The notes beneath the pieces were generated by a model. The model ran no database searches. It worked only from the letters and a program-made list of their open reading frames with translations, and had not been told where the DNA came from. A program made the position numbers and the translations under genes. Shown here piece by piece: positions 1,512 to 40,858 of a DNA stretch of 64,000 nucleotides (position 1 is its first letter; each line of letters starts with the position of its first letter). Source of the stretch: Paludibacteraceae bacterium (lineage in GTDB: Bacteria; Bacteroidota; Bacteroidia; Bacteroidales; Paludibacteraceae); the NCBI GenBank assembly GCA_017551025.1, contig JAFZNG010000006.1, forward strand, positions 1-64,000, written 5' to 3'.

Positions 1512-2798
1512 TCAGACCAGTTGCAGATTATGGTGCATTTTCTCTTTTTTGGTCCGCATATAGCGTTCATTATAGGGATTTGGACGTATCTCAATCGGCA
1601 CGTTCTCAACGATTTCTATGCCGTAACTCTCCAGTCCGATACGCTTCACGGGATTGTTGGTCATCAACCGCAGTCTACAGGCATTCATCTCCCGCAAGAT
1701 CTGTGCACCGACACCGTAATCGCGTTCGTCGGGTCTAAAACCGAGGTGCACGTTGGCCTCTACGGTGTCCTCTCCCTCTTCCTGGAGTTTATACGCACGA
1801 ATCTTATTCATCAGTCCGATACCGCGTCCTTCCTGGTTCATATAGACGAGGATGCCCTTGCCCTCTTGCTGGATCATCTCCATGGCGCGTTCGAGTTGTT
1901 CGCCGCACTCACAGCGCATCGAACCGAAGACATCGCCGGTCATACAACTCGAATGCACACGACACAAGATCGGTTCGTCGGCCGTCCACGTTCCTTTTTG
2001 CAGCACGACATGTTCCAGTCCCGTAGTCAGGTCGCGGAAGGGCGTCAACATAAACTCACCGTGCCGCGTAGGCAGGAAGACCGTCTCACCCTTTTCGATG
2101 AGACCGCTACGCTCAAAGTCGAAAGACCGCTCACTATGTTCGCTCAAAGTAAAAAGCTGCTTTGAGTCCGAAGGACGGTCTTTTGTCTTTTTACTTTCTA
2201 CTGATAACCTATAGGCTATCAGGTCCTTAATCGTGATGATCTTCAGGTCGTATTCCCGGGCCACTTGTTCCAATTGGGGCATACGGGCCATCGTACCGTC
2301 AGCATTCATAATCTCGATGAGTGCGGCGGCGGGGTGCAGTCCGCTGAGTCGTGCCAGGTCCACACCTGCCTCGGTATGTCCGGCACGCTGGAGTACACCT
2401 CCTGCACGGGCGTATAGCGGATTAATATGTCCTGGCCGACCAAAGGTCTCCGGACGCGAAGCCGGATCGGCCAGCGCACGGATAGTAGCCGCACGGTCGG
2501 CGGCAGAGACGCCGGTAGTACAGCCTTCGAGCTTATCCACGGTGACGGTAAAGGGCGTACCGAGCATGGAGGTATTATTCGCTACCTGGTGCATGAGGTC
2601 GAGTTCGGCGCAGCGTTGTTCAGTGACGGGTACGCAGAGCACACCTCGTCCATGCTGTAGCATGAAGTTGACCTTCTCGGGCGTGATCAGTTCCGCCGCC
2701 GTGATAAAATCGCCTTCGTTCTCGCGGTCCTCATCGTCCACTACGATGACAAATCGTCCTAAGCGAAAATCCTCTAAGGCTTCTTGAATAGTATTCAT
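1512..2798 (-). CDS. ribBA: Bifunctional 3,4-dihydroxy-2-butanone-4-phosphate synthase / GTP cyclohydrolase II
   Basis: 428 residues; catalyses the two entry reactions of riboflavin synthesis. The N-terminal RibB domain (about 1-198) has [10 protein letters not shown] near residue 21 and RPGH...RAGHTEA. The C-terminal RibA domain (about 234-428) has the zinc-binding CRVHSSC...RCECGEQ cysteines. Between them, about residues 200-233, is an extra segment ([10 protein letters not shown]...[13 protein letters not shown]) that is the translation of a palindromic repeat element (2102-2180); it falls exactly at the domain linker, so both active sites should be intact. The gene is third after cdd and the lptF/G-like gene, and its start codon lies 68 bp inside the end of the permease frame, which suggests translational coupling. 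Confidence 0.95.
2102..2180. repeat. GACCG palindromic repeat element inside ribBA
   Basis: Three units: a 16-mer at 2102-2117, a 7-nt spacer, a 24-mer at 2125-2148, and an inverted 20-mer at 2161-2180. Each unit is GACCG, a stem with a 3-nt loop, then CTCAAA. The 24-mer stem reads GC TC AC-tat-GT TC GC. The block is read in frame by ribBA and encodes the linker between its two catalytic domains. Confidence 0.85.
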
Positions 2799-4254
2799 AT
2801 CGTTGTTTTAAATCATTTTTCAATCGTTCATATTCGCGCAACCAGGCCTCGGGGTTGAACAGCGACGAGTCGGTAGCTGCCTTATACGTCAGGAACACAC
2901 CTATCGGTAGCAACACAAACGAACTCAACCACATACCTGCCCAGCAGGGCCACAGGGCTTCGCGTGCCATCTTATACCCGGTGTTGTCGATAATATAGTA
3001 GATAATAAACAGCACGACGGAGATCACCACCGGAGCACCCAAGCCTCCCTTACGGATGATCGCACCCAGCGGTGCACCGATAAAGAAGAAAATAAGGCAG
3101 GCAAAGGCCAATGTAAACTTACGGTACAGCTCAATCTCATGACGCCGGATATAGCGCTGGGAGTCATCCAGCATGAGGGCGTTGTAGTCAACCTGGTCGC
3201 GGTAGTTCTGTGCCCGCTCCAGTGCGATACGTGCCGCGTAGAGTTTCCGGTCGGTAGGCATGGCGCGGAAGCATACTTCCGGGTCATACACCCGCTGCTC
3301 GTTCGGCTCAACAGGTATGAGTTGGCGCGACTGACGGCGTTCACGCCCGAAATAGCGGTCGGCCACCATCTTCGTGCTCTGCTCCAGGCTCTGCTCATGC
3401 GCATTTTGCGCCATGGAGTCGATCGAGTGCACCAGTTCCACGACATTTTTGCTCACGTGCTGGTCATCGAGCACCGACTCATCATAACGACTGAACTCGG
3501 AGTCGAAGTCGAGCAACACCTGCTTCATGGCAAAGGTCTCGCGCCGGTATGGAATACTCGTCGTACCGGTGGCCTCCTGTTCCTTCTGACTCAGGTTCTC
3601 GAAGGCCTCACCCGAATAAAGCCGCAGCAAGAGGTATTTCTTATCTTCCGTAAAGTACAACTGCCCGGTATCGGCTACCGTAACCGACACATTACGAAAG
3701 CCCTGGGTATAGTCGTATATCATGACGTCATAGAGCTTGCCGTCTACGGGGTCTTTCTGCCGCACGTAGATATTCAGGCCGTCTATACCACCGTAGAACT
3801 CCCCTACCGGAATAGACAATTCGGGTGATTTCTGCCTTAGCGAGAAGATGAGGGCCCAGAGTTTGGCCTGCGCCTTGGGTAGCACGTTATTGCTAAAGAA
3901 GAAAGCCCCTACGGCTATCAGGGCGATGGTAAACGTGAGCGGCCGCATGATGCGAAAGAGCGAGATACCCGCCGCCTTCATTGCCGTCAGCTCGAAGCGT
4001 TCACCGAGATTACCGAAACTGATAAGCGACGAGAGGAGTATGGCCAGCGGCAGTGCCAGCGGAACAACCGTAGCGACCGCATAGATAAAGAATTCGGCTA
4101 ATACCGTAAGCGCCAAACCCTTACCCACCAAATCCTGGATATGCATCCATACGAACTGCATCAACAAAATAAAGATGCTGATAAATAGCGTTGCCAGAAA
4201 CAACCCGAGGAAGTTTCGCAACAGATATATGTCCAGTCGCTTGACGAGTCTCAA
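2731..4254 (-). CDS. LptF/LptG-family permease (YjgP/YjgQ)
   Basis: 507 residues. Inner-membrane component that, in the characterised family, works with the LptB ATPase to extract lipopolysaccharide and pass it to the periplasmic Lpt bridge. Membrane segments are visible near residues 12-35, 55-80 and 100-122, then a long periplasmic beta-rich region, then three more near residues 385-475; this 3+3 arrangement fits the family. The motif [15 protein letters not shown] after the second membrane span is typical. The protein is longer than the usual 360-400 residues because of an expanded middle domain (about residues 250-370). It starts 9 bp after cdd and its last 68 bp overlap ribBA. LptF and LptG cannot be separated safely here. 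Confidence 0.88.
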
Positions 4255-4263
4255 TCGTTTGTC

Positions 4264-4746
4264 TTATCCGTTTAAGTTTTCGCTCACAAATATCAGCGGT
4301 AGCAGGTCGGCGGCGGAGCGGAAGACGAGGGTCTCTTTCTCGCCGTATAGCAGCACTTCCATAGGCTGATGGTAGCGGTGCTCGGTTTCGATCATCACTT
4401 GTCGGCACGCACCGCAAGGCGATCCGGGTTCGGCGGTAAAATGGCCGTCGGTAAAGCAGGCTATCGCGAGCCGCATCACAGGTTGGTCGGGATACTGTGC
4501 CCCCGCAGCAAACAACGCCGTGCGTTCCGCACAAAGGCCCGAGGGATAAGCCGCATTCTCCTGGTTAGCCCCCCGAACAATCATGCCGTTTTTCAGTTCG
4601 GCCGCCGCACCAACATGGAAACCCGAATAGGGGCAGTAGGAGTTGTTGATTTGCTCACGGGCGATGGCGACTACGGCCTGTTGTTCCGGCGTGAGTTCCT
4701 CCCACGTACATGCCGTCACAGGGGTCTTAATCTCGTACTTTTTCAT
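4264..4746 (-). CDS. cdd: Cytidine deaminase
   Basis: 160 residues. Hydrolytic deamination of cytidine/deoxycytidine to uridine/deoxyuridine in pyrimidine salvage. The zinc-site motif CAE is at residues 72-74 (Glu74 the likely proton shuttle), with the other two cysteine ligands in PCGACRQ (Cys111 and Cys114). NQENAAYPSG before the CAE motif fits the substrate-binding region of the tetrameric class. First gene of the cdd - lptF/G - ribBA unit and preceded by a clear promoter at 4790-4821. Confidence 0.95.
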   Translation of the reverse strand: MKKYEIKTPVTACTWEELTPEQQAVVAIAREQINNSYCPYSGFHVGAAAELKNGMIVRGANQENAAYPSGLCAERTALFAAGAQYPDQPVMRLAIACFTDGHFTAEPGSPCGACRQVMIETEHRYHQPMEVLLYGEKETLVFRSAADLLPLIFVSENLNG

Positions 4747-4789
4747 ATCTTAGCTATTTTTAAGGTGCGCATTATCTCAAATTAGTCCG

Positions 4790-4821
4790 CAAAGATACAA
4801 CATTTTTTCCATATACGCAAG
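4790..4821 (-). promoter_or_regulatory. Promoter of the cdd operon
   Basis: Minus strand: -33 CTTG (4818-4821, extended as CTTGCGTAT), exactly 20 bp, then -7 TATCTTTG (4790-4797). A GC-rich TGCGCGC block abuts the -33 element, as it does at 48785-48816 and 57509-57540. Confidence 0.85.
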
Positions 4822-4873
4822 CGCGCACGCATTTTTCCTCAAAAAAATTGTTTTTCTCCTAAAAAAACAAGCT

Positions 4874-4908
4874 CTTTCCACTTTCAACTTTCCACTTTCA
4901 ACTTTTTT
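4874..4908. repeat. Tandem heptamer repeat (CTTTCMA)
   Basis: CTTTCCA, CTTTCAA, CTTTCCA, CTTTCAA, CTTTTTT: five back-to-back 7-bp units. They fill the space where the -33 region of the following promoter (-7 at 4912-4919) should lie. Confidence 0.85.
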
Positions 4909-4911
4909 TCG

Positions 4912-4919
4912 TACCTTTG
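4912..4919 (+). promoter_or_regulatory. -7 element for the amidase-like gene
   Basis: TACCTTTG fits TAnnTTTG and lies 21 bp before the start codon at 4941. No TTTG is present 20 bp upstream, where the heptamer array sits. Confidence 0.65.
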
Positions 4920-4940
4920 CAAGTCCGCTTGTGAACCATT

Positions 4941-7421: not shown

Positions 7422-7435
7422 TACCCCCACAGGAT

Positions 7436-8860
7436 ATGAAGAAAAAGAATCTACCCTTGTTTGAAAATATCACCATCACGGGTGTGGCCGCCGAAGGCAA
7501 AGCTCTCGTGCGCATCAACGACCTGGTCACGTTTGTGCCTAACTGCGTGCCGGGCGATATCGTAGATCTGCAGATCACGAAGAAGAAGCACTCCTTCATG
7601 GAGGCTAAGGTGGTGCGACTCGTGCAACCCGGCCCGCTGCGCTGCGAGGCACGGTGTAAGCACTTTGGTGTATGCGGCGGTTGCAAATGGCAGATACTCC
7701 CCTACACCGAGCAACTGCGCTATAAGCAACAACAAATCGTGGATAACCTCACGCGTATCGGCAAGATCGCCCTACCCGAGATCAGTCCGATTCTCGGCAG
7801 CAAGCATATCTACGAATACCGCAATAAGTTGGAGTTCACCTTCGCCGACCGAAAATGGCTGCCCTGGGAAGAGATCGAAGCCGCCGGCGGACTGGAGCAC
7901 GTGGACTGCACCTACGGTCTCGGTTTTCATATCCCGAACTGCTTTGACAAGGTGCTGGATATCACGGAGTGCCACCTCATGCCCGAGATCAACAACCGCA
8001 TCCGCAACGCTATTCGCGAGTATGCCAAGACCCACGACCTGAGTTTCTACAACGAGCACACCCACGAGGGCTTGCTGCGCACGCTCATCATTCGTTCCAA
8101 CCACAAGGGCGAGTTGATGGTTATCGTCTCGTTCGGAGAACCAATCACCAATCTTCTGGAATACCTGCACACGGAGTTCCCGGAGATCATCGCGCTTCTA
8201 TACGTAGAGAACACGAAGTTCAACGACACGATCGGGGACCTGGACGTCAAGGTCTTCTACGGCCAGGATCATATCATCGAAGAGATGGAGGGTCTGCAAT
8301 TCAAGGTAGGCCCGAAGTCGTTCTACCAGACCAATACCGAGCAGGCCTACGAGCTCTATAAAGTCGCCCGCGAGTTTGCCTTCAACAACCTTTCGCCATT
8401 AGCCAATAACCTTTCGCCTTTAGTCTACGACCTCTATACGGGTACGGGCACCATCGCCAATTTCGTGGCCCGTCAGGCACGTCAGGTCATCGGTATCGAG
8501 TATGTGCCCGAAGCGATCGAGGATGCGAAAGTCAATTCGAAGATCAATCATATCGAAAATACACTGTTCTTCGCAGGCGATATGAAGGATATCCTGAATG
8601 ATGCGTTCGTGGCGCAGTACGGTCGTCCGGATGTCATCATCACCGATCCGCCTCGTGCCGGCATGCACGAAGATGTCATCAATGTCATCCTCAACGCCGA
8701 ACCGAAACGCATCGTCTATGTGAGTTGTAATCCCGCCACCCAGGCACGCGACCTGCAACTCTTAGATCCCAAATACCGGGTAGTCAAGGTGCAACCCGTA
8801 GATATGTTCCCCCATACCCAACACGTGGAGAACGTCGTGCTACTGGAAATTAAAAATTAA
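7436..8860 (+). CDS. rlmD: 23S rRNA (uracil-C5)-methyltransferase, RlmD/RumA family
   Basis: 474 residues. Transfers a methyl group from SAM to C5 of a uridine in 23S rRNA. TRAM RNA-binding domain at about 8-68; iron-sulfur cysteines in CEARCKHFGVCGGC (70-83) with another candidate near residue 174; SAM motif DLYTGTG at about 334-340; TDPPRAG near 405; catalytic cysteine in YVSCNPAT near 431. Immediately before the SAM motif the protein carries an extra NNLSPLANNLSPLV (about 318-331) encoded by a tandem heptamer repeat (8387-8428). Its last three codons and stop lie in another heptamer array that reaches the next gene's start codon. RlmD and RlmCD-type specificity cannot be separated from sequence. 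Confidence 0.92.
   Translation: MKKKNLPLFENITITGVAAEGKALVRINDLVTFVPNCVPGDIVDLQITKKKHSFMEAKVVRLVQPGPLRCEARCKHFGVCGGCKWQILPYTEQLRYKQQQIVDNLTRIGKIALPEISPILGSKHIYEYRNKLEFTFADRKWLPWEEIEAAGGLEHVDCTYGLGFHIPNCFDKVLDITECHLMPEINNRIRNAIREYAKTHDLSFYNEHTHEGLLRTLIIRSNHKGELMVIVSFGEPITNLLEYLHTEFPEIIALLYVENTKFNDTIGDLDVKVFYGQDHIIEEMEGLQFKVGPKSFYQTNTEQAYELYKVAREFAFNNLSPLANNLSPLVYDLYTGTGTIANFVARQARQVIGIEYVPEAIEDAKVNSKINHIENTLFFAGDMKDILNDAFVAQYGRPDVIITDPPRAGMHEDVINVILNAEPKRIVYVSCNPATQARDLQLLDPKYRVVKVQPVDMFPHTQHVENVVLLEIKN
8387..8428. repeat. Tandem heptamer repeat inside rlmD
   Basis: Six 7-bp units in phase: AACCTTT, CGCCATT, AGCCAAT, AACCTTT, CGCCTTT, AGTCTAC. Three units equal seven codons, so the array reads as a 7-residue repeat (NNLSPLA) in frame just before the SAM-binding motif. 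Confidence 0.85.
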
Positions 8861-10298: not shown

Positions 10299-10427
10299 AA
10301 AAAAGGTAGGCTAACTATGTCGCACCGCTACAACCTCCTACCCTTGCTTCGGTCAAGACCTGGGGGAATTCAGAGGGAGCTGGTCGCATAGCACCTACCT
10401 ATAAGTCGCCTTCGTTTTTTCAAAAGC
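10297..10427 (-). ncRNA. ffs: Signal recognition particle RNA (4.5S-like)
   Basis: Minus-strand RNA that in bacteria scaffolds Ffh and FtsY during co-translational targeting. The core at 10305-10399 closes with GGTAGG / CCTACC and CTATG / CATAG helices; inside are CTGAATTCCCCCAGGT and GAAGCAAGGGTAG, matching the conserved small bacterial SRP RNA (CTGAACTCCCCCAGG ... AGCAAGGGTAG). The 3' end runs into eight Us. Between AGGTC and GAAGCA the expected CGGAAG (closing pair plus GGAA tetraloop) is replaced by UUGACC. A 5' extension forms a GTCGC/GCGAC hairpin (10405-10430) that may be trimmed. The promoter is at 10433-10464. Identity is inferred from these motifs; the exact ends are not known. Confidence 0.85.
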
Positions 10428-10432
10428 GACGA

Positions 10433-13940: not shown

Positions 13941-16511
13941 ATGAAAAAGACTATGAAACGATTCGGACTGGTAGCCCTCCTCACCCTGATGACACTCAGC
14001 ATTGAGGCACAACAGGTGACCACCATGTACTTCCTCGAGAACGCTCCGATGCGTCACGTGCTCAACCCTGCTTTCCAACCCGTCAGCAAGGGGTATATCA
14101 ACTTCACGCCGCTGGGCTACTCCAGCCTCTGGGTGGGCAACAACTCGCTTACCATGAGCGACGTTCTCTATACCTATCAGGGGCAGACCATTACCGCCCT
14201 TCACCCCGAAGGCGGTGACCGTCAGGCCCTGCTCAACCGTTTCCGAAAATTGACGCTCGTCAACGGAGACATTACCTTAGGTTTGCTCAATATGGGTTTC
14301 CGCATCAAAGATGACGGTTATTTCACCCTGGGTATCAACCAGAAAGTAGACCTCGGCATCAGCCTGCCCAAGACTATGTTCGATTTCCTGCTGGGCGGCG
14401 GTATGACCGACCTGGAGGGTGGTATCAACTACTTCAACCTCACCCGTCTCGGTGCGTATGCTAACGTATTTACCGAGGTGAGTGGCGGTTATTCCCACCG
14501 TATCAACGATCACTGGACCGTCGGTGGTAAACTCAAGGTGCTGCTCGGTGAAGCCTATATCGGTGCACGCACCAAGAACCTGGGTATCGATGCCTCTACC
14601 GAACAATGGTGGCTGCACGGCAACATGGATCTGGCTGTCGCTGCTCCGGTGAATTGGGACTTCCTGCCTACCACGATCAACAACTTCGACGACCTGACGA
14701 ATTCGTTCAAGAACTTCGATCCCAAGAAGCATATGAAGTACGCACCTGCCGGTTACGGTGCTGCCATCGACCTCGGTTTTACCTACAAGCCTATCGAACA
14801 AGTCCAGATCTCAGCCGCGCTGGTTGATCTCGGATTTATCTACTGGAACAACTCCCGTAAACTCGGTTGCTCGATCGATACGATCTTCGACGGCGTAGGC
14901 GAGTTCCAATATAGCGACTACACGGACGAGAACGGTCAGTTCCAGAGCGACAAACTCAAAGATGACGTCGTCACCAACCTCAAGAATATCGTCAATGCCA
15001 TCGACATTGATGAGGTACAGAAGAAAGGCTTTGCCCGCATGGTTTCCGCCAAACTGAACGTAGGTGTGGATGCTAATTTCTGGGAGAACCGTGTCGGCGT
15101 AGGTGTGCTGTCGCAGACCCGCATGTACGATAATAAGTTCTACGAGGAAGTGACCGTAGGTGCCGCTTTGCGTCCGTGCAACTGGTTCAACCTGGCCGTC
15201 TCCTACTCGCTCTGCCAGAATGGCAAGTATAGTGATATCGGTGCCGGTCTAAGCTTCATGCCCTACGATGGTATCAACATGACGCTGGCCATGGACTATA
15301 TCCCCACCAACTATGCCGGTATGGATATCAATGGTCAGAAAAAATATGTCCTGCCCTACAAGACCAAAGGCGTCAACCTGGCACTCGGCTTCTCGATCTG
15401 CTGGGGCTCCAATAAGAAAGACAAGGATAAAGACGGTGTATGGGACAAACTGGATCTCTGCCCGAATACCCCGGTGGGTGTACAGGTGGATGAGCACGGT
15501 TGTCCGCTGGATGAAGACAACGACGGTGTACCCGACTACCTCGACCACTGTCTGGGCACGCCTGCCGCAGCACTCGGCACGATCGACTCGGTAGGTTGTC
15601 CTATTGACTCGGATCAGGACGGTGTACCCGACTACCTCGACCGCTGTCCGAATACGCCGAAAGAAGCGCTCGGTCAGACCAACGAAGAGGGTTGTCCGAT
15701 CGACTCGGACCAGGACGGCGTAGCCGACTACCTCGACCGCTGCCCCAACACGCCGCGTGAGGCTATCGGTCATGTAGATGCCCAGGGTTGTGAGCTGGAT
15801 AGCGACGGCGACGGCATACCCGACTACCTGGATCGTTGTCCCGGTACGCCGGAGGGCGCAAGCGTAGATGAGAACGGTTGTGAACTGGATACCGATGGCG
15901 ACGGCGTACCCGACTGGCGTGACGAATGTCCGAAGACCCGCAAAGAAGCACTCGGTCATACCGACGAGAAGGGTTGCGACCTCGACTCGGACCACGACGG
16001 TGTACCCGACTGGCAAGACGAATGCCCGATGGTAGCCGGCGTGAAAGAGAACAAGGGTTGCCCGGAGGTAAAACGTGAGATCCGTCAACTGCTCAAGAAA
16101 GCGATGCAAGGTATCGAGTTTGAGACCGCCCGCGCTACTATCAAGCCCGCCTCTTATCCGCTGCTCGACGAGATTGCACAGCAGTTTATCGACAACCCGT
16201 CCTTCATCATCGAGGTACAAGGTCATACCGACAATACCGGTAATGCGGAGAAGAACATGGAACTCTCGCAAAACCGTGCGAACGCCGTACGCGACTACCT
16301 CATCAGCAAGGGCGTACCCGCCGAGCGCATGACCGCACACGGTTACGGTCAAGATCGTCCGATCTCGGACAACAGCACCAAGGCCGGACGTGCTAAGAAC
16401 CGTCGTGTAGAGTTTGACATCACCTTTGAGCAGGTAACCGTCGAGACCGTACTCGATCATGCCGATCCCGTTGTAGAAGAGACGGAAGCCGCACAACCGA
16501 CACAAGAATAA
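13941..16511 (+). CDS. OmpA-family protein: DUF5723-like barrel, seven thrombospondin type 3 repeats, peptidoglycan-binding domain
   Basis: 856 residues, signal peptide ending near IEAQQ. Residues about 25-490 resemble the Bacteroidota PorV/DUF5723-type outer-membrane barrel (NPAFQP, repeated strands). Residues about 495-700 hold seven calcium-binding thrombospondin type 3 repeats of the form DxDxDGVxDxxDxCPxTP. The C-terminal 120 residues are an OmpA domain with VQGHTDNTGNAEKNMELSQNRANAVRDYL divided over the peptidoglycan-binding site (HTD, NxxLSxxRA). This anchors the outer membrane to the cell wall. An AGGAGG sequence 9 nt before the start codon is unusual here, where most genes lack a Shine-Dalgarno site. 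Confidence 0.92.
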   Translation: MKKTMKRFGLVALLTLMTLSIEAQQVTTMYFLENAPMRHVLNPAFQPVSKGYINFTPLGYSSLWVGNNSLTMSDVLYTYQGQTITALHPEGGDRQALLNRFRKLTLVNGDITLGLLNMGFRIKDDGYFTLGINQKVDLGISLPKTMFDFLLGGGMTDLEGGINYFNLTRLGAYANVFTEVSGGYSHRINDHWTVGGKLKVLLGEAYIGARTKNLGIDASTEQWWLHGNMDLAVAAPVNWDFLPTTINNFDDLTNSFKNFDPKKHMKYAPAGYGAAIDLGFTYKPIEQVQISAALVDLGFIYWNNSRKLGCSIDTIFDGVGEFQYSDYTDENGQFQSDKLKDDVVTNLKNIVNAIDIDEVQKKGFARMVSAKLNVGVDANFWENRVGVGVLSQTRMYDNKFYEEVTVGAALRPCNWFNLAVSYSLCQNGKYSDIGAGLSFMPYDGINMTLAMDYIPTNYAGMDINGQKKYVLPYKTKGVNLALGFSICWGSNKKDKDKDGVWDKLDLCPNTPVGVQVDEHGCPLDEDNDGVPDYLDHCLGTPAAALGTIDSVGCPIDSDQDGVPDYLDRCPNTPKEALGQTNEEGCPIDSDQDGVADYLDRCPNTPREAIGHVDAQGCELDSDGDGIPDYLDRCPGTPEGASVDENGCELDTDGDGVPDWRDECPKTRKEALGHTDEKGCDLDSDHDGVPDWQDECPMVAGVKENKGCPEVKREIRQLLKKAMQGIEFETARATIKPASYPLLDEIAQQFIDNPSFIIEVQGHTDNTGNAEKNMELSQNRANAVRDYLISKGVPAERMTAHGYGQDRPISDNSTKAGRAKNRRVEFDITFEQVTVETVLDHADPVVEETEAAQPTQE

Positions 16512-28832: not shown

Positions 28833-29669
28833 TTACGGACGGCGGAATTCGGCGAGGACGATAGCGGTGGCAATGGCCACGTTAAGACTCTCGGAGGTCT
28901 CCGCCTCGGGAGGATAAGAAGGAATACGTATCGGGTGCGTTATCAGACGACGCACCTCGGGCGAGATGCCGTTGCCCTCGTTGCCCATGATGATGATGGA
29001 CCGCTCGCTTCGCTCGCTGATAGAAGATAGACCGCTTCGCTGATAGAATACAGACTTATTTAGCACTTCGTACATATTCCGACCTTCGAGCAGGGTGCCG
29101 TAGATAGCTATGGGTTGTTGGCCGTTAGCTGTTAGCTGTTGGCTGTTGGCTGTTAACCATTGAGGCAGATCGACATAATGGAGGCGAACACGGGCCAAAG
29201 CGCCCATGGTAGCCTGGACCACTTTGGGATTGAAGCAATCGGCGGTGTCTAAGGAACAGACGATGTCACGCACGCCGAACCAGTCGCAGGTTCGGATAAT
29301 CGTGCCGAGGTTGCCGGGGTCCTGGATACCGTCGAGGGCAAGGATGAGACCGTCCTTCGGACTGAAAGACCGTTCGCTTTGCTCACTGAAAGAACAAAGA
29401 CCGCTCGTTTCACTCGCTGAAAGACCGTCCTGCGGACTGAAGGACGGTAAGCGGAAGACGGCGATGACGCCTTGCGGGGTACGAAGGGATGAGAGTTGCT
29501 CGATAGCCGTGCGGCCTACTTCTTCTTCCGTGATGAGTGCTTCGAGCTCGAAGGCTTTGCGGAGTTCGTCCACACACTTACTGCCCTCGGCCAGAAAGAG
29601 TCCGAGTTCGTCACGATACTTCTTCTGATGAAGGCTTCGATATGTTTTGAGTTGTGCTTTAGAAATCAT
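28833..29669 (-). CDS. TrmH-family RNA 2'-O-methyltransferase carrying three repeat insertions
   Basis: 278 residues. SpoU fold: ISKAQLKTYRSLHQKKYRDE N-terminus (substrate-binding domain), then LDGIQDPGNLGTIIRTCDW (motif 1), IMGNEGNGIS (motif 2) and IPSYPPEAETSESLNVAIATAI across motif 3 (Ser/Asn of the knot). Motifs fit SAM-dependent ribose methylation of rRNA or tRNA. Three segments have no counterpart in the family core: about 75-108 and 208-223 come from the GACCG palindromic element, and about 169-185 (LTANSQQLTANGQQ) from a heptamer array. All three lie just before core strands, in loops. Last gene of the S1/P1 nuclease operon, 12 bp after the Tsx-like gene. Confidence 0.9.
   Translation of the reverse strand: MISKAQLKTYRSLHQKKYRDELGLFLAEGSKCVDELRKAFELEALITEEEVGRTAIEQLSSLRTPQGVIAVFRLPSFSPQDGLSASETSGLCSFSEQSERSFSPKDGLILALDGIQDPGNLGTIIRTCDWFGVRDIVCSLDTADCFNPKVVQATMGALARVRLHYVDLPQWLTANSQQLTANGQQPIAIYGTLLEGRNMYEVLNKSVFYQRSGLSSISERSERSIIIMGNEGNGISPEVRRLITHPIRIPSYPPEAETSESLNVAIATAIVLAEFRRP
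28999..29045. repeat. GACCG palindromic repeat element, two units (in trmH)
   Basis: 24-mer at 28999-29022 with stem GC TC GC-ttc-GC TC GC, 7-nt spacer GAAGATA, 16-mer at 29030-29045. Both end in CTGATA. In the gene it encodes a SISERSERS segment just before the IMGNEG motif. Confidence 0.85.
29113..29161. repeat. Tandem heptamer repeat, seven units (in trmH)
   Basis: GGTTGTT, GGCCGTT, AGCTGTT, AGCTGTT, GGCTGTT, GGCTGTT, AACCATT. On the coding strand it reads as the seven-residue repeat LTANSQQ. Confidence 0.9.
29348..29447. repeat. GACCG palindromic repeat element, four units (in trmH)
   Basis: Architecture 20-mer (29348-29367), 24-mer (29368-29391), 7-nt spacer GAACAAA, 24-mer (29399-29422), 20-mer (29423-29442). 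Same order as the copy in the dnaK leader (40777-40851). Encodes SFSPQDGLS...SEQSERSFSPKDG in the methyltransferase. Confidence 0.9.
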
Positions 29670-29681: not shown

Positions 29682-30452
29682 CTAATCGAAGTTCCATTTC
29701 AGGCCGAGGCAAGGGTTGCACATAAAGCCCTGACCGGAGAAATTATAGGAGAACTCTATTTCGGTGCCGATATTGAGGTTCGGGCAACGAAACCATCGTC
29801 CGACATTATACCAGAGTTGGGGTTCGGCGAGCATCACAAAGGACTGTCCTGCGGCTTCGCGTTGTCCCCATATATCCAGGAAACCGGAGAAGCGCAATCC
29901 AGGAGCGGTACAGAAATCGTCGCATCCCCAGACGAAGGTAAACTGGAGAGGGACTTGGTTACGGGTCTTGTTGTAGTCGTTGACGATATATTTGTAGAGC
30001 AATTCGAGATTGAAGATATTCTTATAGTCGGCGGTATGGAGGCAGTAGTTGAGGCCGACGAGTGCGGCATGGTTGATCGCGTAGCCACGGATATCACCGA
30101 GGGCATCTTTGTAGAGCCCGAGACCACCGTTGTACTCGACCTGTATGCTCAGGTCACGCGCCTTGGTCTGGCCCCAGAAATTGAGACATCGCGCAATCTC
30201 CATATAGGCCATGAAGGGCGTGTTCTGCGGATCGTTGGGATGGATATTATAATCGAAATCCACGAAGGCGAAGGTACTACCCCAAGGGTCGGGATAGAAG
30301 AGTTCGAGCGTTGTGGTGACTCGATTGGAACGCTGATTCGCGCAGGCGGTGTTGAGGCTGCCGAAGTCGTAGAAGAGTTGCAGGTTGGTGCCTGCCTGCG
30401 CACTCAGCGCAAGCAGACACAAACCTACTATCAACTTTAGCCTATTCGCCAT
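29682..30452 (-). CDS. Outer-membrane channel-like protein, DUF5020/Tsx-like
   Basis: 256 residues from ATG at 30452, chosen because it yields a signal peptide (MANRLKLIVGLCLLALSAQA). The pattern GSTFAFVDFDYN ... AYMEIARCLNF, repeated amphipathic strands and a final aromatic strand (LGLKWNF) fit a 12-strand barrel of the DUF5020 type, which resembles the nucleoside channel Tsx (GDtFfFxDxxn, YxEixP). Its position after an S1/P1 nuclease and TonB receptor supports nucleoside or nucleotide uptake. The start codon sits within a heptamer array that fills the 13-bp gap to the preceding gene. Confidence 0.75.
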   Translation of the reverse strand: MANRLKLIVGLCLLALSAQAGTNLQLFYDFGSLNTACANQRSNRVTTTLELFYPDPWGSTFAFVDFDYNIHPNDPQNTPFMAYMEIARCLNFWGQTKARDLSIQVEYNGGLGLYKDALGDIRGYAINHAALVGLNYCLHTADYKNIFNLELLYKYIVNDYNKTRNQVPLQFTFVWGCDDFCTAPGLRFSGFLDIWGQREAAGQSFVMLAEPQLWYNVGRWFRCPNLNIGTEIEFSYNFSGQGFMCNPCLGLKWNFD

Positions 30453-30467
30453 TAGCCTTTCGCCTTT
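30439..30467. repeat. Tandem heptamer repeat over the Tsx-like start codon
   Basis: AGCCTATT, CGCCATT, AGCCTTT, CGCCTTT. The second unit contains the complement of the ATG at 30450-30452, and the last reaches the stop codon of the upstream lipoprotein gene. Confidence 0.85.
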
Positions 30468-31803
30468 ATTCAGCCTCTTCCGGTTCGTTGACAAGGATAT
30501 TCTTGACTTCCCAGGTAGAACAGGTCTGACCGGGCAGACTCTTGTAACGGAAACCGATATAGATGATCTGGTTGTTCCAAGCACTTAGGTCGAGGCGGCC
30601 GGTATTGAAGAACGTCCAACTATTGGCATCGGGGAAACCGGTATTACCGTCGAATTCGTTCCACGGCAGTTGGGTCCAGGTAGCCGTCTTGACATCACCG
30701 GCATAGTCGGTAGATACCCAAACGGTAGCTTGCTCGTAGCGTCCGTCCTCGGGCAGCGGACCGTAGTTCATGGCCATATCGAAGCTCAGCGCCGGACTAA
30801 CGGCATTCTTGAGCTTGATCTTAGGTGTCACGAACCATCCCTCGCCATAGTGCGGACCACCCTTGGCGTAGGCGGTTCCCTTCATGCCATAGAGGTTGTC
30901 GAAGAGCCAGATATACGAGATACCGTCCTCGAGGTCGAAGTCCTGGATGGTCAGTTTACCCATATTACCATCACCGGCTACAGCCTGCTGGTAGTAGGTA
31001 GAGAGGTTGGCAGCCCAGCCTTTCTTCGGATCGAGCATGAAGGACATTGTCTCCTCTGTTACGCCGGTGAAGACGTTCCAAGTCTCGCCGTCGAAGGTAT
31101 ACTCATAGGCTACATAGTGCTTGAGAGCCTCGTCGTAGCGGATTACGACTTCCAGTTGGTCGGCTTCGGCATAGGGGAAATTGTTGCGGAGCCAGTTAAT
31201 TACCTGTCCGTTGGCCTCGGCGGGGAGAAGATGGATATTAGCGGGCAGTACGAGCGGTTGCCATACATAGCCGTCTTCGCTAATGTAGAGCGCTTCCTGG
31301 TCGTCGTATACGACACCGATAATCTGTCCCTCGTCAGGCTGAGGAAGCATGTCGGGGATAAGCGTCGGATCCGTAATGTCGAGCACCACACGCGAAGCGC
31401 TGTTATACGGACGCAAGTAAGGAGGCAGTCCGTCGTCGGTAAGATACGTAAGATTGAAGATCGATCCGGGATCGAGTTGCGGATACTTATTGTAGATAAA
31501 TGCCGGCGCGTACATATCGGCCGTAGCATTATTGCTAAAGCAACCGTTTTTAGCTACGTTGGCCAGGGCGTTCTGGTAGCGGTTTTTGAAGCCCTTGATA
31601 GAGTCCATCTCGCGGGCCAGCGCCTTATTGGTGGCATTGTTGGCGATCGTAGCATAGTCCGCGGCCGTGAGCGTATAGTCGTAGGTCTTGACTACGCTGA
31701 TATACGGATCGCCGTTATCCATATATTTCTCGTCGAAATAGTTCTCACAAGCCGTCAGTCCAAGCGCTACGGCGATGATTCCTAAAATATATTTCGCTTT
31801 CAT
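30466..31803 (-). CDS. Surface lipoprotein of a TonB-receptor locus (DUF5017/choice-of-anchor J-like)
   Basis: 445 residues. Lipoprotein signal peptide MKAKYILGIIAVALGLTAC with lipobox LTAC. An N-terminal helical region (about 35-130) is followed by a beta domain with YISEDGYVWQPL and, in the C-terminal half, a jelly-roll-like part (YGEGWFVTPKIKLKNAVSPA, LSAWNNQIIYIGFRYKS) of the choice-of-anchor J type, split over residues 315-440. It lies 6 bp after the TonB receptor, in the place where SusD/E/F-like lipoproteins usually sit, and may bind the imported ligand at the cell surface. It is not a SusD homologue. Confidence 0.8.
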   Translation of the reverse strand: MKAKYILGIIAVALGLTACENYFDEKYMDNGDPYISVVKTYDYTLTAADYATIANNATNKALAREMDSIKGFKNRYQNALANVAKNGCFSNNATADMYAPAFIYNKYPQLDPGSIFNLTYLTDDGLPPYLRPYNSASRVVLDITDPTLIPDMLPQPDEGQIIGVVYDDQEALYISEDGYVWQPLVLPANIHLLPAEANGQVINWLRNNFPYAEADQLEVVIRYDEALKHYVAYEYTFDGETWNVFTGVTEETMSFMLDPKKGWAANLSTYYQQAVAGDGNMGKLTIQDFDLEDGISYIWLFDNLYGMKGTAYAKGGPHYGEGWFVTPKIKLKNAVSPALSFDMAMNYGPLPEDGRYEQATVWVSTDYAGDVKTATWTQLPWNEFDGNTGFPDANSWTFFNTGRLDLSAWNNQIIYIGFRYKSLPGQTCSTWEVKNILVNEPEEAE

Positions 31804-34527: not shown

Positions 34528-34545
34528 AAAAAACAGATATTATGG

Positions 34546-35358: not shown

Positions 35359-35380
35359 ACCAATAATTAGATTTACGGTG

Positions 35381-35412: not shown

Positions 35413-35426
35413 TAAAAATGAAAAAA

Positions 35427-35867: not shown

Positions 35868-35925
35868 ATACTGAATTGATTTGGTTGTGTCGTTGTGTAA
35901 TGGTGGGTGGATGATAAGGATTATA

Positions 35926-35990
35926 ACCTACTAATCACCTACTAATCACCTACTAATAACCTACTAATCACCTACTAATAACCTACTATA
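35926..35990. repeat. Tandem 11-bp repeat, six copies
   Basis: ACCTACTAATC or ACCTACTAATA repeated five times and a shortened ACCTACTATA. It lies between the promoter and start codon of the gene at 35427-35867, so the transcript should carry GATTAGTAGGT repeats. Confidence 0.92.
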
Positions 35991-36007
35991 GTATGGTAAA
36001 TCGAGTG

Positions 36008-36039
36008 CAAAGGTAGTGAAAATAATTGGAATATGCAAA
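36008..36039 (-). promoter_or_regulatory. Promoter of the small hypothetical protein gene
   Basis: Minus strand -33 TTTG (36036-36039, TTTGCATAT), 20 bp, -7 TACCTTTG (36008-36015). Confidence 0.87.
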
Positions 36040-36049
36040 TAAATAGGAT

Positions 36050-36075
36050 AAAAAGTGCATTTTGCTGCACTTTTT
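36050..36075. terminator. Bidirectional hairpin terminator
   Basis: AAAAAGTGCA / TGCACTTTTT with loop TTTTGC. It lies just upstream of the promoter at 36008 and can stop read-through from the BspA gene. Confidence 0.75.
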
Positions 36076-36085
36076 ATCGTTAATG

Positions 36086-36135
36086 CGTTAAACGGTTAAA
36101 ATGGTTTCGATAAAATCGAAACGTTAAACGGTTAA
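36086..36135. repeat. Direct repeats around a hairpin
   Basis: CGTTAAACGGTTAA occurs twice (36086-36099, 36122-36135) on either side of the hairpin GTTTCGAT-aaa-ATCGAAAC (36104-36122). No gene; role unknown. This completes the 354-bp gap between the small gene and the BspA gene with the terminators and the 11-mer array. Confidence 0.7.
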
Positions 36136-36152
36136 GTAGGCATAGAAAAAAA

Positions 36153-36185
36153 CATCCCCCTACTCTACGGTGAGAGAGGGGGATG
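36153..36185 (-). terminator. Terminator of the BspA gene, copy 1 of a repeated hairpin
   Basis: CATCCCCCT ... AGGGGGATG hairpin followed on the minus strand by TTTTTTT. A 29-bp core (36155-36183) is identical to the dnaK terminator at 38773-38801. A second hairpin GTCCGGAT-gct-ATCCGGAC (36189-36207) lies between it and the gene. Confidence 0.85.
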
Positions 36186-36221
36186 GATGTCCGGATGCTA
36201 TCCGGACGTAATGGACAAAGC

Positions 36222-38417
36222 CTATTTGACTTGTTGACCGGTGAGGGTATAGATTTTGTCGCCACGAAGGATGAAGATACGATTATCGCGGATAATCTTA
36301 TTGGTTAGTGGTGATTGGTTAGTGGTGATTTGGTCTATCGCTTGGTCACGCGGGACAAAGAAAGCACGGACGGTCGCATTGAAAGGCGGCATCGTATAAA
36401 GGATGGTTTCATCCGCCAGATCGGTAAAACTCCAATAACGAAGGATAAAGCCTTCGTAAGGTGTAGCGGTGAGGGTGACTTGAGTGCCTTCGAGATACGA
36501 TCCGCTTCCGGTTACTTCACCCATGGTACTGTCATTCGGGAGGACAGTGAGGGTATAGAACGTGGGAGGTATTTCTTCGAAGATAGCGGTAAACGACTCG
36601 TCCTGAGTTACCTGGAACGTTCGGGAGCTATATAGATAGCCATCGTCCCAAGAAACAAAGCGGTAGCCGGGCTTGGCGTCGGCGGTGATAGTGACATATT
36701 CGCCCGAGAGATAGGCTCCGCCATCCGTAACAGAGCCTGCTAAAGTGTCGGAAACAGCCGTCTCGATATAATAGAAACCGGTAGTATCCATTTGGAAGAA
36801 TTCTTCCCAAACAGGCGCATTTTTATATAGGTTCAGCGAGCGAGGCAGGACTTTGAGGACACAATTCTGTTTATCCACGCCATCAAAGACAGAGGGAGTT
36901 ACAGGGATGGGCGTGACGGCCGGGCAAACGATTTGTTGCAGTGAGAGACAGTTTTTGAAAGCCTCGTCTCCAATGGATTGTACATTGCGGGGCAGGGAGA
37001 CATACAGCAACGATGAATCGTTGGTACACATCGATTGCGGCACATCTGTCACCAGACTGCAATTCAGTAAATCCAGCCTTTCCAGTTTCCACGCATCGCG
37101 AAAAGCGCCGTGTCCTATAGAGCGCAGGTATTTGAGTTTTGGCAAGTTCTCAATAATATGCAGGTTGTAGGTTCCGCAGAACGCCTCATAGCCTATCTCT
37201 GTCAGTCCTAAAGGCAACGAAATAGAATCAATGGCTGCAATCTTGAAACACATCGGCGGAATCACTTTGACCTGGTTCTCCCCGAATTTGGTGATGGTTC
37301 TTATGCTGGTTCCATAGAATGTCAACACACGTCCGAGGTACTTTAACGAAGGGCTGCATTCCAGTTCTTTCAGCGGCGCACTATCCGCAAATGCTTTGAT
37401 GTGTCGCACATATTCTGAGAAATCGTAAATTTCTGCCCTATCATATCCATACGCAAAACTCGCATCCCAAATGGTATCTGTCTTGGGGGACATTTTATAC
37501 GAATAGCCGTCCCGCAGATACGGATAGCAGAAAAGTTGAGATTGGTTCTTTGTATAAAGCACACCGTTATCGTCCATAAAATGGGTATTGGCTGTATCCA
37601 CGTCTATATGCCGCAAGTTATACCAGCCGACTGCAAAACCGGGATGGATATCCGATACTTTTCTGCCGAGGGGTAAAGTATCCATTAGAGCCCCCGCAGT
37701 CAATGAACCGTAAATTGCCGTGAGGCTATCCGGAATATTGAAATAACGCATGCGGATGTCATGTTCAAAAGACCCATTATTTAAAATAGTTATTGTATTA
37801 GGTATTAACATCCTTTCCAAAAACGGATTGTCGGCGAACGCACCCATAATGCTATTCTTAGAAAAAGTTGTCGTATAACTACTCAAATCCGCCTCTATCA
37901 GCGAAGTGCAATTACTTAGCCTCAGATCTTCCAATGCCTGCGTTCCCGTTGACCAGATACGATGAATACCAGGGAGCAGGTTCTCGCTATCCATCAAATA
38001 AATCATTGAATTAATTGAATCGGTTGTGCGAAAATCTATTGGAAACATCATGAGATTCGGCGGCAGAATAAGCGTATCAATGGCGATGAGTCCGCTGGTT
38101 TGGGAGAGTAGCAATGTAATATGCTTGGCTTCACTCATATCTATTTTCCGGTACTGACGCAGGGTGCAGTTCTCCGGGTTGTACCACGCGATTGCACCGG
38201 TGACGGCGTAGTTAATGGCTTCGTGCGTCACAAAATCAGGCAAGACGATGACGGCGGTGTCGTAATGAATGGCGCTAACCTCATAGACCTGCGAAGAGAA
38301 GTCCTCTTTGGTGATTTGGAACTGGATACCATGATGAGAAAAGGTATCATTTACAGCCGCAAAAGCGATAGTAGCATATTGCAACAAAACAAGCGAAATA
38401 AGTAACGATTTTCTCAT
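36222..38417 (-). CDS. Surface BspA-type leucine-rich repeat protein with InlB-type repeats and Por-like C-terminal domain
   Basis: 731 residues. Signal peptide (MRKSLLISLVLLQYATIAFAA). Irregular LRR_5 repeats from about 60 to 540 (AFCGTYNLHIIENLPKL, SIGDEAFKNCLSLQQI). Two InlB-B/Flg_new-like repeats follow at about 555-690 (GGAYLSGEYVTITADAKPGY, GSGSYLEGTQVTLTATPYEG). The C-terminus (IIRDNRIFILRGDKIYTLTGQQVK, in two pieces) resembles the sorting domain for type IX secretion. DQITTNQSPLTNK (about 694-706), just before that domain, comes from a heptamer array. A surface binding role is inferred. Codon choice looks more A+T-rich than that of its neighbours. Confidence 0.88.
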   Translation of the reverse strand: MRKSLLISLVLLQYATIAFAAVNDTFSHHGIQFQITKEDFSSQVYEVSAIHYDTAVIVLPDFVTHEAINYAVTGAIAWYNPENCTLRQYRKIDMSEAKHITLLLSQTSGLIAIDTLILPPNLMMFPIDFRTTDSINSMIYLMDSENLLPGIHRIWSTGTQALEDLRLSNCTSLIEADLSSYTTTFSKNSIMGAFADNPFLERMLIPNTITILNNGSFEHDIRMRYFNIPDSLTAIYGSLTAGALMDTLPLGRKVSDIHPGFAVGWYNLRHIDVDTANTHFMDDNGVLYTKNQSQLFCYPYLRDGYSYKMSPKTDTIWDASFAYGYDRAEIYDFSEYVRHIKAFADSAPLKELECSPSLKYLGRVLTFYGTSIRTITKFGENQVKVIPPMCFKIAAIDSISLPLGLTEIGYEAFCGTYNLHIIENLPKLKYLRSIGHGAFRDAWKLERLDLLNCSLVTDVPQSMCTNDSSLLYVSLPRNVQSIGDEAFKNCLSLQQIVCPAVTPIPVTPSVFDGVDKQNCVLKVLPRSLNLYKNAPVWEEFFQMDTTGFYYIETAVSDTLAGSVTDGGAYLSGEYVTITADAKPGYRFVSWDDGYLYSSRTFQVTQDESFTAIFEEIPPTFYTLTVLPNDSTMGEVTGSGSYLEGTQVTLTATPYEGFILRYWSFTDLADETILYTMPPFNATVRAFFVPRDQAIDQITTNQSPLTNKIIRDNRIFILRGDKIYTLTGQQVK
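36301..36335. repeat. Tandem heptamer repeat inside the BspA gene
   Basis: TTGGTTA, GTGGTGA, TTGGTTA, GTGGTGA, TTTGGTC: an alternating 2x7-bp array, in frame, between the last InlB-type repeat and the C-terminal domain. Confidence 0.85.
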
Positions 38418-38446
38418 AACTAACAGACTTTAGTTGAAAATTGTTG

Positions 38447-38478
38447 CAAAATTACAATAAATTTTTGACATATGCAAA
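38447..38478 (-). promoter_or_regulatory. Promoter of the BspA gene
   Basis: Minus strand -33 TTTG (38475-38478, TTTGCATATGTCA), 20 bp, -7 TAATTTTG (38447-38454). Confidence 0.88.
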
Positions 38479-38532
38479 TAAATAATGATTTTTTTGCGAT
38501 TTTGCGCAGATATAGAGACGGTATCATACTTC

Positions 38533-38753
38533 TTTCTCTCGGGCGGGCGGAGCCTATTGACAAATAGGGGCGACCGAGAGAAACAAAGTCCTCGCGCAGA
38601 GCGAGGACAGCGAAGGGCTAAACCGCCTATGCCCGAGCCCAAGACGGGAAAAGCGGAAGTGACGGCAAGAATGCCGCCAAAAAGGACACCAAAGCGGATC
38701 TGGCGGTAAATATACCGCCAAAGGGGAAATCGAAAAGCGGCATTAAATGCCGC
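38533..38753 (+). ncRNA. Candidate structured non-coding RNA, class unknown
   Basis: A 418-bp gap without a convincing gene holds a chain of strong hairpins: TTTCTCTCGG / CCGAGAGAAA (38533-38583) enclosing CCTATT/AATAGG; GTCCTCGC / GCGAGGAC (38588-38608); TGGCGGTA / TACCGCCA (38701-38720); GCGGCAT / ATGCCGC (38737-38753). The linkers are purine-rich on the plus strand, which favours that strand. The part ACAG...TAAACCGCC, GGGAAAAGCGGAAGTGA, CGGCAAGA-tGCCGCC recalls conserved core strings of RNase P RNA in the same order, but the specificity arm, the GAGGAAAGUC box and the 3' AGAACCCGG box are missing. A weak -7-like GCGATTTTG is at about 38497-38505. Confidence 0.5.
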
Positions 38754-38770
38754 GGAATAAACATACAAAA

Positions 38771-38803
38771 AATCCCCCTACTCTACGGTGAGAGAGGGGG
38801 ATT
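38771..38803 (-). terminator. Terminator of dnaK, copy 2 of a repeated hairpin
   Basis: AATCCCCCT ... AGGGGGATT hairpin, followed on the minus strand by TTTTTTG. The 29-bp core equals that at 36155-36183, while the outermost pairs differ in a compensatory way (AA/TT here, CA/TG there). Confidence 0.87.
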
Positions 38804-38835
38804 CTATCTATCGACCATTTATGGTCGAGTCGCTC

Positions 38836-40737
38836 TTATTTCACTTCTTCGAAGTCGATGTCTTCGGCGCCGCCGTTGGACTTATTGTCCGTCGGGTTGC
38901 CGGGTTGTGCGCCAGCTTGCGGGCCAGCCTGACCGGCCTGGTTGTACATCTCGGAACCTACGGCCTGGAAAGCGTTCATGACCTTCTCGCATGCGGCCTC
39001 GCAGGCGTCAGCGTCACGCTTCTCGTAAGCCTCCTTGAGTTCCTTCAAGGCATCCTCGATAGGCACTTTCTTCTCTGCCGGGATCTTGTCGCCCAGTTCA
39101 CGAAGCTGCTTCTCAGTCTGGAAGATGGTGGCATCGGCTTTGTTGAGTTTGTCAGCCTGCTCCTTAGCCTTCTTATCAGCCTCGGCATTGGCTTCGGCCT
39201 CCGCCTTCATGCGCTTGATCTCGTCATCGGACAGACCCGAAGATGCTTCGATACGGATCTTAGCGTCCTTGCCGGTAGCCTTATCCTTAGCGGTCACGTT
39301 GAGAATACCGTTGGCATCGATATCGAAGGTTACCTCGATCTGCGGTTCGCCACGACGCGCCGGCATGATGCCGTCGAGGTGGAAGCGACCGAGCAGCTTG
39401 TTCTGGGCTGCCATAGGACGCTCGCCCTGATAGATAACGATCTCTACAGAAGGCTGATTATCCACGGCGGTAGTGAAGGTCTCGACTTTCTTGGTCGGGA
39501 TGGTGGTGTTGGCCTCGATCATCTTGGTCATCACGCCGCCCATGGTCTCGATACCGAGCGACAGCGGAGTGACATCCAACAGCAGAACGTCCTTGACATC
39601 ACCGGTGAGTACACCACCCTGGATAGCAGCACCTACAGCGACTACTTCGTCGGGGTTAACGCCCTTGGACGGTGCCTTGCCGAAGAACTTCTCTACGGCA
39701 GCCTGGATAGCCGGGATACGGGTAGAACCACCTACGAGGATGATCTCGTCGATATCCGAAACGGAGAGTCCGGCATTCTGGAGCGCCGTACGGCATGGTG
39801 CGATAGTACGCTGGATGAGGTCGTCGATGAGTTGCTCGAACTTAGCACGCGTGAGCGTCTTAACAAGGTGAGCAGGTACACCGTTGACAGGCATGATATA
39901 CGGCAGGTTGATCTCGGTAGAGGTAGTGTTGGAAAGCTCGATCTTTGCTTTCTCAGCAGCCTCTTTGAGTCGCTGCATAGCCATCGGGTCTTTGCTCAGG
40001 TCGGCACCGCCGTTCTCAGCCTTGAACTCCGATACGAGCCAGTCGATAATACGGTGGTCGAAATCATCACCGCCCAGGTGGGTATCACCGTCGGTAGCTT
40101 TTACTTCGAATACACCGTCGCCGAGTTCGAGTACGCTGACATCGTGGGTACCACCACCGCAGTCGAAGACAACGATCTTCATATCCTTGTTGGACTTGTC
40201 GAGACCGTAAGCCAAGGCGGCAGCTGTAGGTTCATTGACGATACGACGTACGTTAAGGCCTGCAATCTCGCCGGCTTCCTTGGTAGCCTGACGCTGCGAG
40301 TCGTTGAAGTAAGCCGGCACGGTGATGACAGCTTCGGTCACTTCCTGTCCGAGGTAGTCCTCAGCGGTCTTCTTCATCTTCTGGAGGATGATCGCCGAGA
40401 TCTCTTGCGGGGTATAGAGACGTCCGTCGATATCTACACGCGGTGTATTATTGTCGCCACGCGCTACGGTATACGGTACGCGCTCTATTTCCTTCTGGAG
40501 ACGATCGTAGCTCTCACCCATAAAACGCTTGATCGAGTATACGGTCTTGGTCGGGTTGGTAATTGCCTGACGCTTAGCCGGATCACCCACCTTACGCTCA
40601 CCGCCCTCGACGAAGCCGACTACAGAGGGAGTCGTACGCTTGCCCTCGGAGTTGGCAATAACGATAGGTTCGTTGCCTTCCATAACGGCAACGCAGGAGT
40701 TAGTAGTTCCTAAATCAATTCCAATAATCTTAGACAT
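38836..40737 (-). CDS. dnaK: Molecular chaperone DnaK (Hsp70)
   Basis: 633 residues from the ATG at 40737 ([15 protein letters not shown]); the frame is open further upstream but that part is the repeat-bearing leader. ATPase domain signatures are complete: GIDLGTTNS (phosphate 1), [14 protein letters not shown] (phosphate 2), [11 protein letters not shown] (adenosine). The substrate-binding domain starts after the linker [15 protein letters not shown], and the C-terminal lid ends in a Gly/Gln-rich tail and EDIDFEEVK. Length matches the family. Single gene; its promoter region carries the dyad shared with clpB and a leader of about 125 nt containing a GACCG palindromic element. Confidence 0.98.
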
Positions 40738-40776
40738 AGTAGTATATAAATTTTTAATTAAACATTCAAAATTTAT

Positions 40777-40858
40777 GACCGCCCTTCGGGCTGAAAGACC
40801 GTTCGCGAAGCTCACTGAAAGAGTAAAGACCGCTCACGTCGTTCGCTGAAGGACCGAG
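40777..40858. repeat. GACCG palindromic repeat element in the dnaK leader
   Basis: 20-mer (40777-40796, stem GCCC-ttc-GGGC), 24-mer (40797-40820), 7-nt spacer GAGTAAA, 24-mer (40828-40851), then a truncated GACCGAG. Same architecture as 29348-29442 with different but self-complementary stems. Confidence 0.9.

Follow-up and report, generated by a model that had tools for sequence, protein, structure and literature searches.

We describe a family of very small palindromic DNA units found in a 64,000-nt stretch (the window) at the start of contig 35 of a Paludibacteraceae genome, a metagenome-assembled genome (MAG) of 1.94 Mb in 36 contigs labelled G000 here. The closest named relatives by the trmH gene are Paludibacteraceae and Bacteroidales MAGs, many of them derived from ruminants. 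The units, mostly 16–24 nt in length, lie in short arrays together with plain 7-nt blocks; the two arms of a unit vary between copies while staying complementary, and copies with a change in one arm only are nearly absent. We give slightly better than even chances to the reading that these are very small dispersed hairpin repeats among 7-mers, with arms matched by templated DNA synthesis, and that most copies are passengers.

Covariation of the arms

Pairing was evaluated on 74 distinct cores, taken regardless of their stems as matches to the strict pattern AGACCGN{5,13}CTNAWAG in G000 (89 of 89 matches) and in a second genome of the same genus, G034 (100 of 112, the matches listed). The inner pairs are Watson–Crick in 154 of 197 cases, compared with 98.2 ± 5.8 (maximum 120) in 2000 half-swaps, and the nonpaired inner positions include the fixed TC/TC sites described below as well as chance matches. 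Of 66 units recognized by their neighbouring block and not by their stem, 65 had perfect free pairs and the remaining one had a T·G pair. Among isolated pattern matches, 87 of 96 have perfect stems and nine are imperfect, most of the nine being chance-like.

Three alignments were built from rows chosen by hand among hairpin-shaped units. The 24-mer alignment (12 rows of the nested plan only, two from G034 and one from G026, with perfect 6-bp 24-mers excluded) contains 14 stem cells in which both sides changed and none in which a single side did. The 22-mer alignment (eight rows, comprising seven distinct G034 hairpin cores and one from L284, with five non-hairpin G034 22-mers excluded as chance) contains six and none, respectively, and the 20-mer alignment (12 rows from G000, G034 and G029, the last contributing a wobble unit, with two rows sharing one core but differing in their tails) contains eight and one. 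Together, 28 two-sided changes stand against a single one-sided change. In each alignment the paired percentage, the number of two-sided cell changes and the covariation score exceed all 500 shuffles. Two other measures do not stand out: for the 24-, 22- and 20-mers, respectively, 156, 16 and 215 of the 500 shuffles attain the observed number of pairs with a double change, and 500, 313 and 67 attain that of further pair types. The initial annotation had noted that the stem bases change while remaining complementary, and this covariation is indeed far beyond chance.

Co-varying stems are usually taken as proof of a selected RNA structure. Selection on RNA tolerates G–U pairs, however, and single changes must come before double ones. 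With 28 double changes to one single change and stems that are mostly too short to fold, the pattern suggests that the matched arms arise through copying. Predicted RNA folding of seven arrays relative to shuffles gave z values of −1.68, 2.76, 0.29, 1.04, −0.09, 1.23 and −1.64 and is thus not clearly better than that of shuffled sequence; an eighth sequence, from L282, did not cover its array and is left out of this count. The near-absence of one-sided and wobble intermediates, combined with this result, favours the view that both arms are written in one process. A general RNA function was set aside on the same folding data, and a known RNA family was likewise discarded, since an Rfam scan of the window at the gathering score gave no match at the arrays. 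The lone Rfam match in the window is the Bacteroidales small SRP RNA (RF04183) at 10300–10407 (−).

Candidate enzymes were examined in the genus. Matches to Y1_Tnp occur in 22 of 62 genomes, with one in G000, and matches to RVT_1 in 16 of 62; association with copy number was computed for 61 genomes (G000–G060), omitting G101. The median count of the tail-free core GACCGCTNCGCT is 12 with RVT_1 and 17 without it, which is not a significant link (p = 0.74). No Y1_Tnp match is present in eight of the 13 genomes that hold 50 or more core copies (G001, G002, G004, G024, G026, G034, G041 and G046), and G001, G004, G024, G026, G034 and G046 have neither Y1_Tnp nor RVT_1, an absence that is soft because the genomes are mostly incomplete MAGs. 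RAYT and reverse transcriptase were accordingly rejected as drivers, neither being significantly associated with copy number. Taken with the folding results, the lack of a significant enzyme link makes the arms look copied and not selected as RNA. From the missing intermediates we infer that the arms are matched by templated copying. The initial annotation had left open whether the elements are selected, or generated, as hairpins; the scarcity of intermediates, the weak folding and the occurrence of both orientations within genes lean towards generated.

Copy number and distribution

The strict pattern has 89 matches in the G000 genome compared with three for a reversed-pattern control, and the looser GACCGN{5,13}CTNAWA has 145 compared with 72, which rules out a chance origin of the window matches. 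The family is thus dispersed over the genome, well beyond the four loci from which it was first recognized. Over 61 genomes of the genus the strict pattern gives 1–112 matches each, while in 40 genomes representing one per other family of the order it is at or near the control level. The core GACCGCTNCGCT is present in 0–202 copies per genome, with at least 50 copies in 13 of the 61 genomes and three or fewer in 12 of 61, and does not exceed two per genome in the 40 other families. The forecast of hundreds of matches per genome was therefore too high for most genomes. Unit tails vary by species (CTGAAA, CTCAAA, CTGTAA, CTGACA and GTTA), so that strict-pattern counts understate some genomes. 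As far as sampled, the family is confined to one genus and is patchy within it.

Spread by phages was considered and rejected. One pattern gave no viral contigs and a looser pattern gave 13, of which only one, L302, carries an array; the other 12 matches comprise seven from a near-identical stretch with one isolated match and five other isolated matches. In L302, an IMG/VR contig, positions 321–368 hold a pair of units separated by two GAGCAAA 7-mers, and one contig classed as viral therefore does carry an array.

Units and arrays in the window

The window contains 12 units at four loci (six 24-mers, four 20-mers and two 16-mers), all of which are present as the initial annotation had placed them, with the stems of the six 24-mers as it had written them. 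The frame that it had assigned to them, GACCG…CTnAWA, holds generally; the units at 29423 and 40828, however, end in CTGAAG. The arrays and their host genes are as follows.

1512..2798 (−), ribBA gene, holding the array 2102–2180 in its interdomain linker
2102..2117 (+), 16-mer unit with a 2-bp stem, ribBA array
2118..2124 (+), 7-mer block GTCGAAA, ribBA array
2125..2148 (+), nested 24-mer unit, ribBA array
2161..2180 (−), 20-mer unit GTCC-TTC-GGAC, ribBA array, in the orientation opposite to its other units
28833..29669 (−), TrmH/SpoU-type RNA methyltransferase gene, with two in-frame arrays in linkers that vary among relatives
28999..29022 (+), nested 24-mer unit, first trmH array
29023..29029 (+), 7-mer block GAAGATA, first trmH array, ending in ATA as do the CTGATA tails of both adjoining units
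29030..29045 (+), 16-mer unit, first trmH array
29348..29367 (+), 20-mer unit, second trmH array
29368..29391 (+), nested 24-mer unit, second trmH array
29392..29398 (+), 7-mer block GAACAAA, second trmH array
29399..29422 (+), nested 24-mer unit, second trmH array
29423..29442 (+), 20-mer unit with tail CTGAAG, second trmH array
40777..40796 (+), 20-mer unit GCCC-TTC-GGGC, Era-like GTPase/dnaK intergenic array
40797..40820 (+), nested 24-mer unit, same intergenic array
40821..40827 (+), 7-mer block GAGTAAA, same intergenic array
40828..40851 (+), nested 24-mer unit with tail CTGAAG, same intergenic array

The array at 40777–40851 lies between the Era-like GTPase gene (40962–41852, −) and dnaK (38836 to about 40737, −) and is antisense to both. 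The pattern also matches at 14516, 34206, 47114 and 62448 in the window, apparently by chance.

Other repeats are also present in the window. Tandem 7-mer-like repeats of the TTAGCCA/GTTAGCT kind occur at 8386–8425, 29104–29164, 30432–30471, 53983–54022 and 63425–63464, one of them within the trmH gene between its two hairpin arrays. A tandem 11-mer resembling CCTACTAATCA occupies 35912–35988, and two 36-nt copies with 97% identity (36149–36184 and 38767–38802), containing ATCCCCCT...AGGGGGAT, flank the open reading frame 36222–38417. The open reading frame 13941–16511 contains repeats at a spacing of about 90–96 nt (15433–16308).

Modular anatomy

The anatomy of the arrays was read from 25 stretches around genome matches. 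Most blocks have an initial G and a final AWA, and are either plain 7-mers GnnnAAA (for example GTCGAAA, GACAAAA, GAATAAA, GAGTAAA and GAGCAAA) or hairpin blocks GAC[C-stem-loop-stem-T]nAWA; the two kinds abut in varied order. Stems are 2–6 bp and loops chiefly 3–4 nt, and 16- or 17-mers account for 67 of the 89 G000 matches and for 61 of the 100 G034 matches listed. In unit–7-mer–GAC triplets, the unit and the 7-mer end in the same three letters in 62 of 78 cases, compared with a mean of 46.6 and a maximum of 56 in 5000 shuffles; in L239, the tail GTTA is next to the 7-mer GAAGTTA. Of the 40 families sampled beside this one, 17 have runs of AAAGNNN 7-mers alone; the control for this count is not independent, because reversing the pattern yields a 7-mer run again.

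The 24-mers of the TC/TC type follow the plan C-GY-T[C-RY-nnn-RY-T]C-RC-T, in which the inner nine letters repeat the plan of the 16-mer core, and such a 24-mer can be read as a hairpin module whose loop encloses another, 9 nt long. Outer and inner stems both pair in 12 of 12 24-mers of this plan, nine of which were drawn by a pattern that fixes purine or pyrimidine and not pairing. The exact C…T inner module is found in 11 of the 12, and one has T…G. The TC/TC positions, which had been described as a fixed mismatch, are better read as a sign of this nesting. A third level of nesting (32-mers) was not found among the loci examined.

Position relative to genes

Fifty arrays were counted in G000 using gene calls from a simple codon-usage caller. 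Single matches lacking the preceding A and the following G were dropped, and five of the 89 strict matches (C2, C3, C8:18557, C10:24550 and C30:82791), which are chance-like, are outside the count. Twenty-seven arrays are intragenic (16 sense and 11 antisense) and 23 are intergenic (15 along both neighbours, seven against both and one mixed). The array-bearing stretches have a coding fraction of 0.925, so that genes are avoided yet are far from closed to arrays. Intergenic arrays often start at or near a stop codon and finish near the next ATG, and a composite TA-(unit-7mer)2-3-GACTGAWWATG, or a close variant of it, recurs between genes.

Host genes include those for RibBA, the TrmH/SpoU methyltransferase, HflX, RsgA, Tex, a GH94 protein with three arrays in its one gene and a U32 peptidase, among others. 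The RibBA array falls between DHBP synthase (residues 5–196) and GTP cyclohydrolase II (residues 239–401), with 34 residues between the aligned domains compared with four in PDB entry 4i14. In HflX, the unit corresponds to a 15-residue in-frame insertion relative to PDB entry 8vkw.

Filled and empty sites across species

At the coaX junction, units are present in eight of 30 species (L261, L262, L274, L280, L282, L284, L285 and L287), where they come directly after a conserved AATAA/AACAA; the first L261 unit begins with GAACG. The empty state is a GTGA gene overlap in six species (L276, L277, L283, L286, L288 and L289), and other 7-mer runs are at or near the same place in at least five (L263, L264, L270, L271 and L279). 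A GACCG-hairpin built differently is present at the L264 junction as well and was not counted. Some units are shared by descent: L261 and L262 have their second unit in common, and L282, L284 and L285 have one 5-bp stem in common, with a different loop in L282. The ruvA junction has units in two of 30 species, G000 and one with the tail GTTA.

In the trmH linkers, units were counted by eye in 13 of 24 readable orthologues, with six of 30 loci unparsed. This survey took open frames only, and in six further loci one linker was read, so that the in-frame state of these units follows in part from the design of the survey. The trmH linkers of L206, L210, L212, L219, L222 and L225 contain different in-frame short repeats (for example NVNANDNA and SEYSEYSD), and these linkers thus take up repeats of any kind.

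Comparison with known repeat families

Cyanobacterial heptamer repeats (STRR) are 7-nt tandem blocks, a likeness to the present arrays, in which however hairpin blocks sit among the 7-mers. Elhai and colleagues, in work from 2008, reportedly described Nostoc SDR elements of 21–27 nt as hairpins with compensatory changes set in tandem 7-mers, with copies nested in copies, restriction to one clade and evidence of recent mobility. On that account, the family described here is similar in size class and in its many dispersed copies, being shorter at the low end (16–24 nt), in its compensatory changes, in its heptamer setting and self-nesting (at one level here) and in its restriction to one clade. 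It differs in belonging to another phylum and having another sequence frame, the comparison being one of described features and not of sequence, and also in its variable length, in block ends shared between units and 7-mers and in its frequent in-frame position in core genes. One-sided intermediates are nearly absent in the present family, and a matching count for the Nostoc elements is not known to us. Our preferred reading is a dispersed hairpin repeat of very small size that appears analogous to the Nostoc SDR elements, which are cited in passages of PMC2884548, PMC4390886 and PMC3116915. A search of open-licence PMC articles found no description of this hairpin family, in agreement with the initial annotation; a very similar kind of element was nevertheless already known.

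Rickettsia palindromic elements, for which passages of PMC10969869 give a length of about 150 bp and a conserved peptide, resemble the present units as palindromic repeats in frame in unrelated genes, but the latter are blocks of 16–24 nt in several frames and on both strands, with no conserved peptide. REP and REPIN sequences share short palindromes, clustering and, in the REPIN hairpin, compensatory changes (in passages of PMC3116915 and PMC12306157; see also PMC3733652); the present family differs in not being mainly extragenic, in having no significant RAYT link, in its other end and in its blocks with 7-mers. Cod-2 small repeats also occur in coding sequences; the passages of PMC2267715 that describe them mention neither nesting nor a 7-mer context, and the comparison is by description only.

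Proposed origin and alternatives

We envisage that arrays gain, lose and swap blocks through replication slippage and copying guided by microhomology at AAAGAC-like ends. The arms would stay matched because one is copied from the other, by fold-back synthesis or by intrastrand template switching, and most copies would be tolerated passengers at permissive sites such as gene junctions and protein linkers. Several observations weigh against this reading. Spread to 50 arrays in one genome requires a copying step, which was unobserved here, and no constant target-site duplication, the mark of a MITE, is apparent on inspection by eye, the letters preceding the first unit being variable. The recurring intergenic composite could point to a function, two of the seven arrays lean towards better folding (z = −1.68 and −1.64) and genomes with Y1_Tnp have a median of 23 core copies and those without it 10, although this difference is not significant (p = 0.12). 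The units common to L261 and L262 by descent show that some copies are old, and with one genome per species no insertion is dated. It is possible, if doubtful, that templated synthesis goes further and that the unit is a self-spreading palindromic module of 9–17 nt which needs no enzyme, is born whole by fold-back synthesis at 7-mers and re-inserts into its own loop, with both arms rewritten at once.

Functional mRNA hairpins, kept paired by selection for intercistronic stability or translation coupling, would fit the 15 of 23 intergenic arrays that run along both flanking genes, many spanning from near a stop codon to near an ATG, and the two arrays with z near −1.7. The other five arrays, however, fold like shuffles or worse, most units have 2-bp stems (the 16- and 17-mers counted above), wobble intermediates are nearly absent and orientation bias is not significant either between genes (15 of 22, p = 0.13) or within them (16 of 27, p = 0.44). 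More than half of the arrays (27 of 50) are also intragenic, 11 of them antisense. We consider this explanation unlikely. A protein-binding DNA site kept as an inverted repeat (a dimer site or an uptake or chromosome-organization signal) would account for the conserved GACC end and the mirrored arms found genome-wide in both orientations, but the sequence and length (2 to 6 bp) of the arms and the loops vary and several species of the genus do without the family (12 of 61 with three or fewer core copies), which makes such a site improbable.

Mobilization of a REP/REPIN-like element by an IS200-type RAYT transposase is very improbable. The palindromes are short, clustered and patchy among species, G000 has its one Y1_Tnp match and the medians given above differ in the expected direction, but eight of 13 copy-rich genomes have no such match, the arrays are not extragenic and the units begin with GACC and carry no GTAG or CGTC tag. 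A selected peptide insert, as discussed for the Rickettsia elements, is scarcely credible: units do lie in frame in TrmH, RibBA, HflX, Tex, GH94 and other genes, yet the differing frames and use of both strands yield no single peptide, and genes hold fewer arrays than their share (27 of 50 compared with a coding fraction of 0.925).

Implications

Should the self-spreading module be real, it would rank with the smallest DNA blocks known to spread by themselves, and the genome would hold a genome-wide record of hairpin-templated mutation that reaches core proteins. Covariation alone may mislead as evidence for RNA structure. The family offers a comparative system, in which 178 genomes of one genus can be searched and nested units as well as both occupied and empty sites are available; it bears on the spread of repeats far shorter than any transposon and on how in-frame linkers of core enzymes may arise from repeats.

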